The notes under the pieces were generated by a model, which saw only the letters and a program-made list of their open reading frames with translations, searched no databases and was not told the DNA's origin. From Bdellovibrio sp. BCCA (GTDB taxonomy: Bacteria; Bdellovibrionota; Bdellovibrionia; Bdellovibrionales; Bdellovibrionaceae): a stretch of DNA of 64,000 nucleotides. Numbering within the stretch: the stretch's first letter is position 1; each line of letters begins with the position of its first letter. Positions 20,115 to 29,528 of this stretch are shown here, one piece after another. The stretch lies in assembly GCF_037996825.1 (NCBI RefSeq), contig NZ_JBBNAC010000001.1, positions 3,286,001 through 3,350,000 on the forward strand. Reading direction: 5' to 3'. Both the position numbers and the translations under genes were made by a program.

Positions 20115-21959
20115 TTAAGCTACAAGATTCAATCCGCTGCCTTTGCCTTCAACATTGCGTGCACGCGCGGTGCTCGATGTTTCGATGGGTTGCAAAGGAT
20201 CGCGACCACGATTTCCATAACCTTTCAAGTTTGGCATTTCCAAGAAAGATTCTTTACGTCCTTGTGAACCGAAGTTTTCATTAAACTGGTTCCAGAATTG
20301 ACGATTCTGATCTCTTTGGTTTTGTCCATTCATGTTGGTTTGGTTTTGTGTCGCCGTATCCGCAGACGCTGAGTTCACAACATCCACTTTCACATTTTCC
20401 ATCGAGAGCTTGTGAGCAGCAAGACTGGTTTTCAGTTCAGCTAGACTAGACTCAATCGTCTTCTTAGCCTCCTGAGTATCCGCCGACATCTGCAAATTCA
20501 CTTTGCCGTCTTGAAGCATCACTTTGAGGTGAATCGTCCCCATGCCCTCAGGGGTCATTTGAACTTTCATCTCGCCGCCACCTTTTTTAATCAGGTATTG
20601 CGCTTGATTCATAAGTTGCTTCACAGCCGCTTCGTTTTCTGCAGGATTCGCCGGGGCTGTTGGAGCCGCTGCCGCCATAGGAGCTGCCGCGTTCATTCCC
20701 AAAGTTTCACCTTTGATAGGTGCTCCGTGAATGCCCTCAAGCCCTGTCAGACTGCTTTTGAAGTCCGCAGCTTTTTCCACAAGCTTCGTCGCTGCTTCCT
20801 TACCGCCGGTCATCATTTTTGCCGCTGGCTCTTGCGAGTTTTGCTGCATGAAAGATTGACCTTGCGATTGATTTTGGAAGAACTCTTGGCTCGCTTTGTT
20901 TTGGACATTCGGAATTTGTCCTTGCATTGCGATCGGAGCTCTTTCCAATTTCGGAGCTTGCGCTGCTTGTTGGAATTCATCCATCAATGCTGGATTTTCT
21001 TCTGTCGCCGCTTGCTCCTGGGCTTGCTTTGCTTGAGCCGCTTGTTTTGCTGCTAAAGCTGCGAGCAACGCCGGAGACATCGCCTCTTTCATTTGCCCTT
21101 GCAAATGCGGAGGCAACTCTTCAAGCTTCGGCCCTTGCGCCGCCGCCGGAGGAGTTTGTGGCATTTCTGTTTCAGGAACTTCCATTGGCATTTCATCTTG
21201 AGCGATGTCCGCCATAGAAGAAGAATCATCCATCATCATTCTTTGTGCTAACGACGCATCCAACGAAGGCATGTCCGTCGGAGCCGCTTTAGGCTCCTGC
21301 CTCATCCAAAAACTTTTATTCAAGCGATCGACGGAAGCACCCATGGCATCTTGTTTGCCTTGAGCCGCTGCGATGCGCGCTTGCATATGTTGTTGAGACA
21401 TACCCGCACCCACAGCCATTTCTGGCGCAGGTTTTGGTTGTTGCTGTTGTGGCATTTGGTTCAATTGAGTTAGCAAAGCCACATACATCGCTTGCGCTTT
21501 GTCTGCGTCTTCATCACTCAAACCTAATTGCTCAATGACAGCATTCGCTGTTGCTTCGGGAGATTGGGCGAGTTGTTTGTCGTCCAGCTGGGCCATCGCC
21601 TCCACAAGTCGTGTGGGGGATATTTCGAATTCACTCTCGAAAGAGTCCATGAATTCCTGAATTGCCTTCTGTCGAACCGTCGCCTTTTTACTTATCTTCC
21701 CGTCGGGTTTGCTGACCTCTTCCGTCTTCTTAGCTTCGGCTTGTTGAGGCTTTGGATCATCTTGATCTTTGGGCTTCATCTCGCGTTGCGGTGAATCTTT
21801 CACTTCTTTCGGGTCTTTCGAAGTTATTTTTTCTTCGAGAGCCTTTCCGAATGAAGATTCGGAGCCGGAACCTTTGAAATCCTTATCCACCGTTCTTTCC
21901 GGTGAAGATTTCAAATCGGTCGCACCCACCATGGGAGGGCCGACTATACTTTGTAACAA
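20115..21959 (-). CDS. fliK: Flagellar hook-length control protein FliK
   Basis: FliK measures hook length and switches export specificity. The 614 residues are mostly low-complexity Gln/Ala/Pro/Met-rich sequence, as expected for the molecular ruler. A conserved Flg_hook C-terminal domain sits at about residues 450-540 (GGGEMKVQMTPEGMGTIHLKV, then NLQMSADTQEAKKTIESSL). The start is TTG at 21959, after an AAGGAGG ribosome binding site. It is preceded by a structured 62-nt gap. Confidence 0.9.
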   Translation of the reverse strand: MLQSIVGPPMVGATDLKSSPERTVDKDFKGSGSESSFGKALEEKITSKDPKEVKDSPQREMKPKDQDDPKPQQAEAKKTEEVSKPDGKISKKATVRQKAIQEFMDSFESEFEISPTRLVEAMAQLDDKQLAQSPEATANAVIEQLGLSDEDADKAQAMYVALLTQLNQMPQQQQPKPAPEMAVGAGMSQQHMQARIAAAQGKQDAMGASVDRLNKSFWMRQEPKAAPTDMPSLDASLAQRMMMDDSSSMADIAQDEMPMEVPETEMPQTPPAAAQGPKLEELPPHLQGQMKEAMSPALLAALAAKQAAQAKQAQEQAATEENPALMDEFQQAAQAPKLERAPIAMQGQIPNVQNKASQEFFQNQSQGQSFMQQNSQEPAAKMMTGGKEAATKLVEKAADFKSSLTGLEGIHGAPIKGETLGMNAAAPMAAAAPTAPANPAENEAAVKQLMNQAQYLIKKGGGEMKVQMTPEGMGTIHLKVMLQDGKVNLQMSADTQEAKKTIESSLAELKTSLAAHKLSMENVKVDVVNSASADTATQNQTNMNGQNQRDQNRQFWNQFNENFGSQGRKESFLEMPNLKGYGNRGRDPLQPIETSSTARARNVEGKGSGLNLVA

Positions 21960-21993: not shown

Positions 21994-22041
21994 GTTCGCT
22001 GCTTCAGCTTCGCTCTGCGGGCTACCGCCCAGCGGGCGAAC
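21994..22041 (-). other. Intercistronic hairpin at the motE-like/fliK junction
   Basis: GTTCGC at 21994-21999 pairs with GCGAAC at 22036-22041. Inside, GGGC (22019-22022) pairs with GCCC (22027-22030) around the 4-nt loop TACC, so the stop codon of the upstream gene lies in the inner hairpin. It could affect mRNA processing or coupling between the two genes. Confidence 0.5.
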
Positions 22042-22837
22042 GTCGCTTATAACCAGCAAACATCTCAGATAACACCTGAGCCTTTTCTGGCTTTAATAAA
22101 TTCATAATATCAGCAGCATTCTTCTTTTTCATACGACCAAGTATTTCAACTGCCAAATCCTCGTCCATTGTCTCAAAGACTTTAGCCGCTTGCGGTGGCT
22201 TCATATTCGAGTACATCTGTACCAAGGTATCGACTTTCTGGTCATCAGCCTTGACGCGATCTTCGAGCATCGAAGAAATTTTCGTTCTCATTTCTTCAAG
22301 CTCTTTCAAACGTTTTTCGAGATCCACTTTTTGAACTTGCAGTTCAGCCTCCATGCGATTGAGTTCTTCTTCACGCGCATCGAGTTCTTTTTTTCTTTCA
22401 TTGAGTTTTTTAAGGTGATCAATTTCTGCAGAACTCATCGTCGCTGGAGCTTCCGCCGCTGCTTCGGCGTTGACTTGCTCTTGCGCTGCAGGAGCCGATG
22501 CTGCGGGTTTTTCAGGATTTTGTGCAACTGCCTCACCTGTCATCTGAATTTCTACGCGCTTAATTAAATTTTCTACTTCGTCGTGATTTTGAAAACCCCA
22601 CACGGCGACAAGAAGTCCCATGAAAGAAACGCCTACCATTTTCCAAGGCACAGAAGCTTTTTTTCTTTTTTTAGGAGCGCCCATTTTCATGCGACGGCGG
22701 ATTTGTTGTTCAACGTCTTCAGAGGCAAGATCAAGATGCAAACGCGTTGCTGAAGGATTTTTCTTAAACTTCACGCCGCCTTGTTGATCGGCGACCTTGC
22801 GTGCATTCTGAAAAAATTGATCGTATCCGCTTTTCAT
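22022..22837 (-). CDS. MotE/MgtE-N-like flagellar protein
   Basis: A 271-residue protein. A basic N-terminal region (RMKMGAPKKRKKASVPWK) precedes one membrane helix at about residues 45-62 (MVGVSFMGLLVAVWGF). An Ala/Pro/Glu linker follows, then a coiled coil at about 115-195 rich in Glu/Leu/Lys. The C-terminal domain is MgtE-N-like (MYSNMKPPQAAKVFETMDEDLAVEILGRMKKKNAADIMNLL, quoted in two halves). This layout matches MotE, a periplasmic chaperone of MotC in rhizobia, and FliG-like middle domains. It sits between fliJ and fliK, a frequent place for this family. Confidence 0.72.
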   Translation of the reverse strand: MKSGYDQFFQNARKVADQQGGVKFKKNPSATRLHLDLASEDVEQQIRRRMKMGAPKKRKKASVPWKMVGVSFMGLLVAVWGFQNHDEVENLIKRVEIQMTGEAVAQNPEKPAASAPAAQEQVNAEAAAEAPATMSSAEIDHLKKLNERKKELDAREEELNRMEAELQVQKVDLEKRLKELEEMRTKISSMLEDRVKADDQKVDTLVQMYSNMKPPQAAKVFETMDEDLAVEILGRMKKKNAADIMNLLKPEKAQVLSEMFAGYKRRSPAGR

Positions 22838-22838
22838 T

Positions 22839-23285
22839 TTATTCCTTCACGGCTTTAAAGCGCAGGATGCTTTGTTCATCCATCTCTTTTTGGTCCTGAG
22901 CGAGACGATCCTGTTTGTATTCCTCAAACTTGTTTTCTCGCATCTTCTCCATAATTTTATATTCGAGCGCGCATTGTCGCAAAATTTCTCTCTTGGACTC
23001 GACCAATTTCTCGATTTCTTGAAGTTTTTGCTTTTGCCTGTGGATGCGGATTTCCTGGCCTTTTAGGAACTCATGGATCTGCGAAAGAGCTGGACCTTGG
23101 GCTCCCCCCTGACTGGCGAAAGCACCTGCCTGCGCGTGGGCATTGGTTTTTTGCCCTTCCATGTGATTAAGGCGAGCCATTTCTTCATTGAGAAGCATCA
23201 TGGCCTCTTGAAAATCTTTTTGAGCTAAGTTTTCTTTGATTTTACGGTGCTCGAGAACTTTTTGGAGTGGGAATTTGAATTTCAT
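22839..23285 (-). CDS. fliJ: Flagellar export chaperone/stalk protein FliJ
   Basis: FliJ is the coiled-coil stalk of the export ATPase FliI and escorts export chaperones. The 147-148 residues are nearly all alpha-helical coiled coil with the typical start KFKFPLQKVLEHRKIKENLA and heptad-rich QKLQEIEKLVESKREIL. It follows fliI through a 53-nt structured gap and is one base from the next gene. The ATG is preceded by GGAG, which belongs to the conserved hairpin element. Confidence 0.9.
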   Translation of the reverse strand: MKFKFPLQKVLEHRKIKENLAQKDFQEAMMLLNEEMARLNHMEGQKTNAHAQAGAFASQGGAQGPALSQIHEFLKGQEIRIHRQKQKLQEIEKLVESKREILRQCALEYKIMEKMRENKFEEYKQDRLAQDQKEMDEQSILRFKAVKE

Positions 23286-23292
23286 AAGATAT

Positions 23293-23328
23293 TACTCCAG
23301 TTCCGGGCCTCCAGCCCTGCACACTGTG
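23293..23328 (-). repeat. Intercistronic hairpin-RBS element, copy 1 (before fliJ)
   Basis: A 36-nt element matching copy 2 (before flgC) at 32 positions. On the minus strand it consists of the palindrome CACAGTGTG, a hairpin GGGCT-GGA-GGCCC and the conserved GGAACTGGAGTA. The GGAG serves as the Shine-Dalgarno for fliJ, 9 bases later. Confidence 0.75.
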
Positions 23329-23338
23329 GGCCCCAGCC

Positions 23339-24667
23339 TTAGGCATTCACAAGGATTTGCTGCATTTGGCGAACTGTTTGCGTGAAGGTTGTCGGATCTT
23401 CGACTCTCTGTTTAAGGAAGTCGTTCACTTGATCGATCACTTTCACCGCTTTATCGATTTTTGGATTTGATCCCGGTTTATATGCACCAATGTTAATCAA
23501 ATCTTCAGCATCTTTATAAACAGCCAAGGTCTCGCGCAGTTTTTGCGCCAATTTTGCGTGTTCAGAAGATGTCACAGCCCGCATCACACGACTTGCACTT
23601 TGCATGATATCAATCGCAGGGAAATGTCCCTTTTGCGCCAAGGCACGACTAAGAACAATGTGCCCGTCGACGATGGAACGAACAGAATCTCCGATAGGAT
23701 CATTCATATCATCACCTTCAACGAGAGTTGTGTAGAATCCCGTGATACTGCCTTCGCCTTCAAAAGATCCCGCACGTTCCAACAACTTCGGTAAAGTCGC
23801 AAACACGCTCGGTGTATAACCTTTTTGTGAAGGAGGTTCGCCAGTGCTAAGACCGATCTCCCTTTGCGCCATTGCAAAACGTGTTACAGAGTCCATCATC
23901 AAAAGAACGTTTTTACCTTGAGAGCAGAAATACTCTGCCAAGGCTGTGGCAACGTAAGCACCCCGCATACGAAGCAAAGGACTTTGATCACTCGTCACAC
24001 AGACAACAACAGATCTTGCCATCCCTTGCGGACCCAAATCGTGCTCGATAAATTCACGCACCTCACGGCCACGTTCACCGATCATTGCAATCACGTTGAC
24101 GTCAGCATTAGTATTTCTCGCCATCATCCCTAATAGAACGGATTTACCAACACCCGAACCCGCCATAATTGCGACACGCTGACCAAGACCTGCGGTTAAT
24201 GCGCCATTAATAGCTCTGATACCTAAATCAATAGGTTCGCGAATAGGCCGTCTTGCTAGAGGATTGCGAACTTCACTATAAAGAGGAACTTCTCGGAAAT
24301 GTTCAACTTCACCTTTGTCATCCAAAGGGCGGCCTAAACCATCCACCACACGGCCTAAGAGTTCGTCTCCGGCACGGACCGTGGCGATTTGACGAGCCAG
24401 AGTGATTTTGGAACCCAAAGCCACGCCTCTCATGTCATTCAGAGCCATCATCAATACATGTTTGTCTTTGAAACCGACGACCTCAGCAAGAAAAGATTTT
24501 TCCATGCCGCTCGGATTGATTTTCACGATGCTACCGACACTGGCACCTGGAAGATAGCCTTTGATAAGCATGCCATTGACTTCCGTCACCTTCCCGCTAT
24601 CGCGAGTTAAGTGAATGGAGTCAATAACGTTGGCGTACTTATCCAGATTCAGTTCAAGCTCGTTCAT
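23339..24667 (-). CDS. fliI: Flagellum-specific export ATPase FliI
   Basis: FliI is the hexameric ATPase of flagellar type III export. The 442 residues contain Walker A GSGVGKSVLLGMM, IGERGREVREFIEHDLG, Walker B region KNVLLMMDSVTRFAMAQREIGL and the family motif GEPPSQKGYTPSVFATLPKL. The length matches the family. It overlaps the fliH stop by one base (TAATG). Confidence 0.95.
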   Translation of the reverse strand: MNELELNLDKYANVIDSIHLTRDSGKVTEVNGMLIKGYLPGASVGSIVKINPSGMEKSFLAEVVGFKDKHVLMMALNDMRGVALGSKITLARQIATVRAGDELLGRVVDGLGRPLDDKGEVEHFREVPLYSEVRNPLARRPIREPIDLGIRAINGALTAGLGQRVAIMAGSGVGKSVLLGMMARNTNADVNVIAMIGERGREVREFIEHDLGPQGMARSVVVCVTSDQSPLLRMRGAYVATALAEYFCSQGKNVLLMMDSVTRFAMAQREIGLSTGEPPSQKGYTPSVFATLPKLLERAGSFEGEGSITGFYTTLVEGDDMNDPIGDSVRSIVDGHIVLSRALAQKGHFPAIDIMQSASRVMRAVTSSEHAKLAQKLRETLAVYKDAEDLINIGAYKPGSNPKIDKAVKVIDQVNDFLKQRVEDPTTFTQTVRQMQQILVNA

Positions 24668-28629: not shown

Positions 28630-29073
28630 CTACCTGCCGATCTCCAGCGCACTGAGTGCCATATCCTTTGACGCCTGCAAAGCCGTCACGTTCGCCTCAT
28701 AGGAACGCGATGCCTGTATCATATTGGTCATCTCTTCCATAAGGTTGATATTAGGATATGCGACGTATCCGTCAGCATTTGCATCGGGATGGTCGGGTTC
28801 GTATTTCAACAGCGGCGCTTTACGATCCGAAATAACATCCGTCACCTGGACCCGCTGAAAGTTTCCTTTCGGGTCTGTTGACGTGATGATCTCACCAAAG
28901 TTTTTTGCATCCGGCATTGCTTCAAAGACCACGTCTTTTCTGCGATACGGTCCGCCTTCAGGAGTCTGGGTCGTATTGATGTTGGCGATGTTGCTGGCAA
29001 TGGTATTCATGCGCATTCTTTGCGCTGCCATACCACTACTGCTTACTCTCATCCCTGTTAAGAAATCAGCCAC
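28630..29073 (-). CDS. flgC: Flagellar proximal rod protein FlgC
   Basis: The 147-residue rod protein has the N-terminal rod motif (MRMNTIASNIANINTTQTPEGGPYRRK in two halves) and the C-terminal EMTNMIQASRSYEANVTALQ. The start is GTG at 29073, with the GGAG of the conserved hairpin element six bases upstream. It follows flgB and works with FlgB and FlgF/G in the rod. Confidence 0.93.
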   Translation of the reverse strand: MADFLTGMRVSSSGMAAQRMRMNTIASNIANINTTQTPEGGPYRRKDVVFEAMPDAKNFGEIITSTDPKGNFQRVQVTDVISDRKAPLLKYEPDHPDANADGYVAYPNINLMEEMTNMIQASRSYEANVTALQASKDMALSALEIGR

Positions 29074-29077
29074 TAGC

Positions 29078-29113
29078 TACTCCAGTTCCGGGGCTCCGCC
29101 CCTCCACACTGTG
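29078..29113 (-). repeat. Intercistronic hairpin-RBS element, copy 2 (before flgC)
   Basis: A 36-nt element matching copy 1 (before fliJ) at 32 positions. On the minus strand: CACAGTGTG, hairpin GGGGC-GGA-GCCCC, then GGAACTGGAGTA. The GGAG is the Shine-Dalgarno of flgC. Compared with copy 1, one stem pair changes from C-G to G-C and another from T-G to C-G, preserving pairing. Confidence 0.75.
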
Positions 29114-29114
29114 C

Positions 29115-29528
29115 CTATCGGCCCTCAGTCGCAGCGTATTTGAGTGCCGCCATTTTTTTATTAATCAATTGAAGTGCTGCTTTGTACATGATCGCGTTTT
29201 CTGACAAAGCGGACATTTCTTTTTCCACGTCAACGGTGTTGCCGTCGTTGTTCACAGCACCTTCTGGATCGTCATAGATATCGGGGCGAGTTTTACTAAC
29301 GGAAACTCCTCCGACACCGAAGTGTTGTGAATCGCTTGTGCTTAGGGCATTACCGCCATCCAAATCCAGAGCTCTTTGCAAAGCTCCTTCAAAATCCATC
29401 TTCTTCGCGTGATAACCCGGAGTCTCTGCATTCGCGATATTCGACGACGTAACATTGTGACGAAGCTGTCTCATCGACAATGACGTGGCGAGAGCGTTGG
29501 TTGTTTTATCGAAGAGTCCACTACTCAT
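29115..29528 (-). CDS. flgB: Flagellar proximal rod protein FlgB
   Basis: The 137-residue rod protein has the typical N-terminal SMRQLRHNVTSSNIANAETPGY and the following KKMDFEGALQRAL. The C-terminus is VDVEKEMSALSENAIMYKAALQLINKKMAALK (in two halves: through NAIMYK and the rest). It overlaps the end of the upstream regulator gene by four bases (ATGA), consistent with translational coupling. Confidence 0.93.
   Translation of the reverse strand: MSSGLFDKTTNALATSLSMRQLRHNVTSSNIANAETPGYHAKKMDFEGALQRALDLDGGNALSTSDSQHFGVGGVSVSKTRPDIYDDPEGAVNNDGNTVDVEKEMSALSENAIMYKAALQLINKKMAALKYAATEGR

Follow-up and report, generated by a model that had tools for sequence, protein, structure and literature searches.

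Two gene junctions in the flagellar region of Bdellovibrio sp. BCCA carry closely similar 36-nt motifs a few nucleotides ahead of a start codon, which raises the question of whether these motifs control flagellar translation or belong to something more general. The window analysed here is the whole 64,000-nucleotide stretch of contig NZ_JBBNAC010000001.1; positions are those of the window and all window features given below lie on the minus strand. The original prediction described one motif before fliJ (23293-23328) and one before flgC (29078-29113), and proposed selection for an RNA structure tied to translation, possibly the target of a protein or an sRNA. The two 36-nt copies are found at these positions, with 32 of 36 nucleotides identical (four differing positions). 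The exchange described in the stem is also read in the sequence, GGGCT-GGA-GGCCC in the fliJ copy being replaced by GGGGC-GGA-GCCCC in the flgC copy with pairing kept, and the gene names agree with Pfam. The pattern CACAGTGTG-N15-GGAACTGGAG has exactly two matches in the window as compared to 0.00 in shuffled sequences and, even when as many as 3 mismatches are allowed, exactly two in the entire genome of 4.0 Mb.

Each 36-nt motif is the 3' part of an element of about 50 nt with two hairpins. Diverged copies in the host genome were first found by looser genome searches, and a covariance model (R1) was then built from ten copies. R1 recognizes 45 copies in the host genome at E≤0.001, three of them in the window; since a covariance search prefers well-paired copies, decayed ones are under-counted. 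The set of host copies examined for covariation holds 50 distinct ones. From 5' to 3', the element consists of hairpin 1 (stem of 4-5 bp with, in most copies, a GGNN or GNNA loop), RCAG, AGY, GNA, hairpin 2 (4-6 bp, loop of 3-4 nt), GNA, RCT and a tail with the consensus GRAGYAG. In the inner part, RC pairs with GY and AGY with RCT; the two GNA triplets lie opposite one another and form an internal loop. Tandem arrays with a period of about 50 nt also occur (for example L098 and L298). A search of Rfam with eight copy-bearing loci gave no match up to E = 1. The element thus extends the initial description in three ways: it reaches about 12 nt further upstream, it has a third copy in the window, and dozens of diverged copies are present in the genome.

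The full copy at the fliI/fliJ junction spans 23292-23338 (R1, 46.3 bits, E 1.8e-8 in the window). It begins immediately 3' of the TAA stop codon of fliI (23339-24667; Pfam PF00006 and PF18269, flagellar ATPase) with a weak hairpin 1 of 3 bp, followed by the conserved linker, hairpin 2 (23305-23317) and the tail, and is located before fliJ (22839-23285; PF02050, FliJ). The copy at the flgB/flgC junction spans 29077-29124 (52.1 bits, E 8.8e-10 in the window), between flgB (29115-29528; PF00460 and a position directly before flgC) and flgC (28630-29073; PF06429 and PF00460, flagellar rod protein). Its hairpin 1 (GCC-GATA-GGC) and the flgB stop codon overlap, and its hairpin 2 lies at 29090-29102. 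In both copies the tail reads GGAGTAR. The GGAG had been taken as the actual ribosome binding site; because it is located 9 nt 5' of the fliJ ATG (GGAG at 23295-23298, ATG at 23285) and 6 nt 5' of the flgC GTG (29080-29083 and 29073), it can serve as a Shine-Dalgarno sequence, a predicted role for which the spacing is right. The third copy (21999-22030; 39.6 bits, E 5.9e-7 in the window) is shortened: it retains hairpin 1 and AGC-GAA-GCT, has lost hairpin 2 and closes on a GNA triloop. It has an identical 32-nt twin at G000:C1:1498228. This copy is located at the junction between fliK (20115-21959; PF02120) and a gene at 22022-22837 whose name, MotE-like, we infer from a Pfam MgtE_N match and from its position before fliK.

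The expectation that further copies exist and that pairing is kept in relatives was borne out by the genome searches and by the covariance model. In 102 copies from relatives, none of which belonged to the set used to build R1, 97.6% of pair cells are standard and 11 of the 14 pairs show changes on both sides. The covariation score of this set is 0.477; shuffling lowers it to 0.129, and sliding the pairing to 0.02-0.03. The score of the 50 distinct host copies is 0.463. Copies gathered with R1 give alignments that lean toward the R1 structure, but both the sliding control and the exchange of whole arms (C-G to G-C) speak for a genuine pairing. The kind of pairing is informative as well. The 152 distinct copies give 1999 pair cells, of which 1915 hold a Watson-Crick pair, 14 a G·U and 11 an A·C; the preference of R1 for well-paired copies depresses both of the latter counts. 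tRNA stems in the same loci, taken as a control, show 14 G·U and no A·C in 253 cells; by Fisher's test the two sets differ in the share of G·U (p=3e-7) and in its ratio to A·C (p=0.003). If an RNA is selected for its structure, G·U pairs should be accepted and A·C should not. In the element G·U is not commoner than A·C, and this pattern is therefore absent; the near-equal low counts suggest that pairing is renewed, or selected for, in the DNA itself.

The position of the element relative to genes is strongly constrained. Using gene starts and stops from a simple codon-based gene caller rather than curated annotation, 134 of 153 copies fall outside called coding sequences, and among the 130 copies with an upstream gene 115 are in sense and 15 in antisense orientation to it. 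As many as 83 of the 153 have their start in the interval from -12 to +4 nt around the stop codon of an upstream gene on the same strand, 59 of these at 0-2 nt; when positions are drawn at random from the intergenic sequence of these loci, 4.1% fall within this interval. The part that adjoins the stop codon is hairpin 1 and not the tail; second copies in tandem arrays lie about 50 nt further away. The stop codons at the 83 sites (43 TAG, 35 TAA and 5 TGA) are used nearly as in all called genes, so that no stop sequence is favoured. Downstream of these stop-adjacent copies, 67 same-strand genes, 11 convergent genes and, in five cases, no called gene were found. Some copies, among them L052, L063 and L164, appear to be located within reading frames, where the surrounding stretches are rich in Ala and Pro and linker-like; a few of these frames may be errors of the gene caller. 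The strong sense bias and the location of hairpin 1 beside the stop could reflect a function at the RNA level rather than simple tolerance of insertions.

The element is widespread in the genus: 20 of the 23 other genomes carry it, with 1-29 copies each, and three carry none. Outside the genus, among 60 genomes searched, it was found only in a member of another genus of the same family (L078 in G035, four copies). Pattern scans of genome and viral contig collections gave convincing matches only in Bdellovibrio, the remainder looking like single chance matches. One pattern-selected sequence in a Caulobacter MAG (L198, 6144-6194) scores 31.8 bits with R1 and is probably due to chance.

Occupancy of the three window sites differs among relatives. 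A full copy at flgB/flgC is present only in the host genome, with a diverged copy in G018, and the site is empty in G003, G014, G007 and others; the flgB stop codon directly abuts the flgC ATG in G003 and G014, two genomes with an FlgC that shares 98-99% identity with that of the host. At MotE/fliK no copy was observed in any relative read, the sites being empty. Since close relatives have empty sites, the copies at these two junctions are, as judged by sequence comparison, insertions. The shortened copy entered near the 3' end of the MotE-like gene: a TAG in its hairpin-1 loop is the present stop codon, and at 22022-22030 it replaced the C-terminal codons, the protein ending in ...SPAGR here and in ...SPASAK in relatives. 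The fliI/fliJ copy is common to the host, G003, G014 and G007, diverged in others, and missing from the site in G016, G006, G023 and G002.

What, then, does the element do, and how did it reach these sites? A chance likeness of two GC-rich hairpins near Shine-Dalgarno sequences can be dismissed with near certainty: no match is expected in shuffled sequence, R1 gives dozens of matches at E≤0.001, and this copy number, together with the covariation, rules it out. The initially proposed reading, a cis-acting RNA that controls initiation of translation of the downstream gene, perhaps by binding an sRNA or a protein, for which CsrA would be an example, now appears quite improbable. The tail GGAG is at Shine-Dalgarno distance from fliJ and flgC, the hairpin-2 loop is GGA in both copies, and csrA is present as a single copy in all 24 genomes of the genus. 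However, across the family this loop varies (TCG, ACA, CGC, CGG, AGA, GGA and others) and most tails read GAAG; several copies are followed by a separate Shine-Dalgarno sequence further down (for example L026 and L033). Besides the 11 of 83 stop-adjacent copies that face a convergent gene, many others have the next start over 60 nt away. Finally, close relatives lack the flgC copy, and G·U shows no excess over A·C. Selection for a flagellar or translation-initiation RNA target is not supported, and the loop variation led us to reject a CsrA site in the window copies. We consider a dedicated flagellar regulator unlikely: the copies are not tied to flagellar genes, the family conserves neither the loop nor the GGAG, and the copy before flgC is young. 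Flagellar translation as the reason for the existence of the element is not supported. Hairpins that present CAGGATG (for example GAACAGGATGTTC) were observed just before the flgC or fliJ start in genus members without the element, in the flgC leaders L140-L143 (G011, G021, G022 and G012) and in the fliJ leader L112 (G015). CAGGATG resembles the CsrA consensus closely.

An RNA element with a role in translation termination or at mRNA 3' ends, selected behind stops through ribosome stalling or as a barrier to exonucleases and dispersed only secondarily, is a more serious candidate, although still a minority one. It would explain the exact spacing of 0-2 nt and the fixed polarity, irrespective of TAA, TAG or TGA. 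It also has a precedent: in E. coli, ribosome stalling and mRNA cleavage at the stop codon are reported for REPs that lie no more than 15 nt from it (Liang et al. 2015, as summarised in PMC12306157). By the same spacing (hairpin ≤15 nt behind the stop), 90 of the 153 copies start within -25 to +15 nt of a same-strand stop codon, and a REP-like effect on ribosomes at stop codons is, by analogy, possible. Against it stand G·U pairs as rare as A·C, the three genus genomes without any copy, and another repeat of the same genome, AAGGTGCCTGCTTCTTTTTT, which also abuts stop codons, so that this location is not special to the two-hairpin element. That repeat flanks a transposase gene. A further reading is that the element is a canonical REP/REPIN moved by this resident RAYT. 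The genus has Y1_Tnp genes, among them one syntenic orthologue, L025 (G000:C1:577900-578535), which matches NCBIfam NF047646 (REP-associated tyrosine transposase) with 70.6 bits, below the curated cut-off of 80. Element copy number is high mainly where this orthologue occurs: all 16 genomes that possess it have at least three copies, as against two or fewer in seven of the eight genomes that lack it, and the presence/absence label changes at least four times on the FliI tree. Nevertheless, none of the 32 Y1_Tnp loci has an element copy within 1.5 kb, total Y1_Tnp gene number does not follow element copy number (Spearman -0.07), and G008, a 230-contig assembly, has 17 elements without a Y1_Tnp match. 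Furthermore, the L025 RAYT carries its own flanking perfect inverted repeats, AAGGTGCCTGCTTCTTTTTT, which differ from the two-hairpin element. We rejected a mobiliser assigned by adjacency on this ground and on that of the 32 loci, and mobilisation by the resident RAYT seems unlikely to us. We are equally doubtful about a RAYT-less mobile hairpin that is inserted or retained 0-2 nt behind stops in sense orientation, with its target set by termination or by another enzyme.

The flanking repeat of L025 has about 19 dispersed copies in the genome (L387-L400), some in inverted pairs and many directly behind a TAA stop. By published criteria (PMC2817692, PMC3116915), AAGGTGCCTGCTTCTTTTTT and not the two-hairpin element would be the cognate REP of this RAYT. 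Nunvar et al. (2010) confined RAYT/REPIN-like systems to gammaproteobacteria (PMC2817692); L025 with AAGGTGCCTGCTTCTTTTTT looks like such a system outside this group.

The motif probably belongs to a REP-like family of palindromic repeats that are dispersed in Bdellovibrio, measure about 50 bp, contain two hairpins and spread as DNA. Nearly all copies are kept in sense orientation, right behind a stop codon, and our best reading of this location is that the element is tolerated there. All three flagellar-operon copies would be insertions, two of them with empty sites in relatives; between fliI and fliJ and between flgB and flgC the element would have split tightly packed genes and placed the GRAGYAG tail as a new Shine-Dalgarno sequence. 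Pairing may be kept up at the DNA level by hairpin-dependent copying or by template switching between the arms, and in the mRNA the hairpin behind the stop may affect nearby ribosomes or decay from the 3' end, in the manner of E. coli REPs. Our literature and Rfam searches found no earlier description of this repeat family, and the HD100 transcriptome paper makes no mention of repeats, hairpins or palindromes. A tempting but weak case for a flagellar RNA switch gives way to a repeat family at the level of the genus, whose insertions carry a stop codon or Shine-Dalgarno sequence with them and can in this way rewire the junctions of an operon. If placement behind stops reflects targeting or function, the filled and empty orthologous sites offer a comparative system for REP-like hairpins in this position.

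Among known systems, the CsrA-binding hairpins resemble the fliJ and flgC copies by a GGA in the loop near a Shine-Dalgarno sequence; they differ in that the loop of the element is not conserved in the family and that CsrA-consensus hairpins are separate structures, in the leaders of relatives. Rickettsia palindromic elements (RPE) are palindromic and found also inside reading frames. The Bdellovibrio element shares this last property, although its coding copies look like a minority. With REPINs and RAYTs the common points are a host RAYT with its own repeat family and an abundance mainly in RAYT genomes, but the element is neither the repeat that flanks the RAYT nor a doublet of inverted REPs. 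The closest likeness is to the REPs and BIMEs of E. coli and other gammaproteobacteria, which are also short, dispersed, imperfect palindromes, often close behind stops and in tandem clusters. As described for REPs by Nunvar et al. 2010 (PMC2817692), the element is a dispersed, mostly extragenic palindrome with compensatory changes in its arms. Its alignments show no GT(A/G)G head at the 5' end, which is formed by hairpin 1, and it has two hairpins, a GNA/GNA internal loop and a 3' GYAG tail. Canonical REPs have an adjacent RAYT, flanked by two inverted copies (PMC2817692); no RAYT was seen beside any element copy, and no such arrangement among the 32 Y1_Tnp loci. REPs exceed 100 copies per genome and form clusters (PMC2817692). 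The element has tandem clusters and 45 copies at E≤0.001, a count in the tens rather than hundreds that may leave out decayed copies; it is distinguished by a tighter spacing to the stop codon and a strong sense bias.
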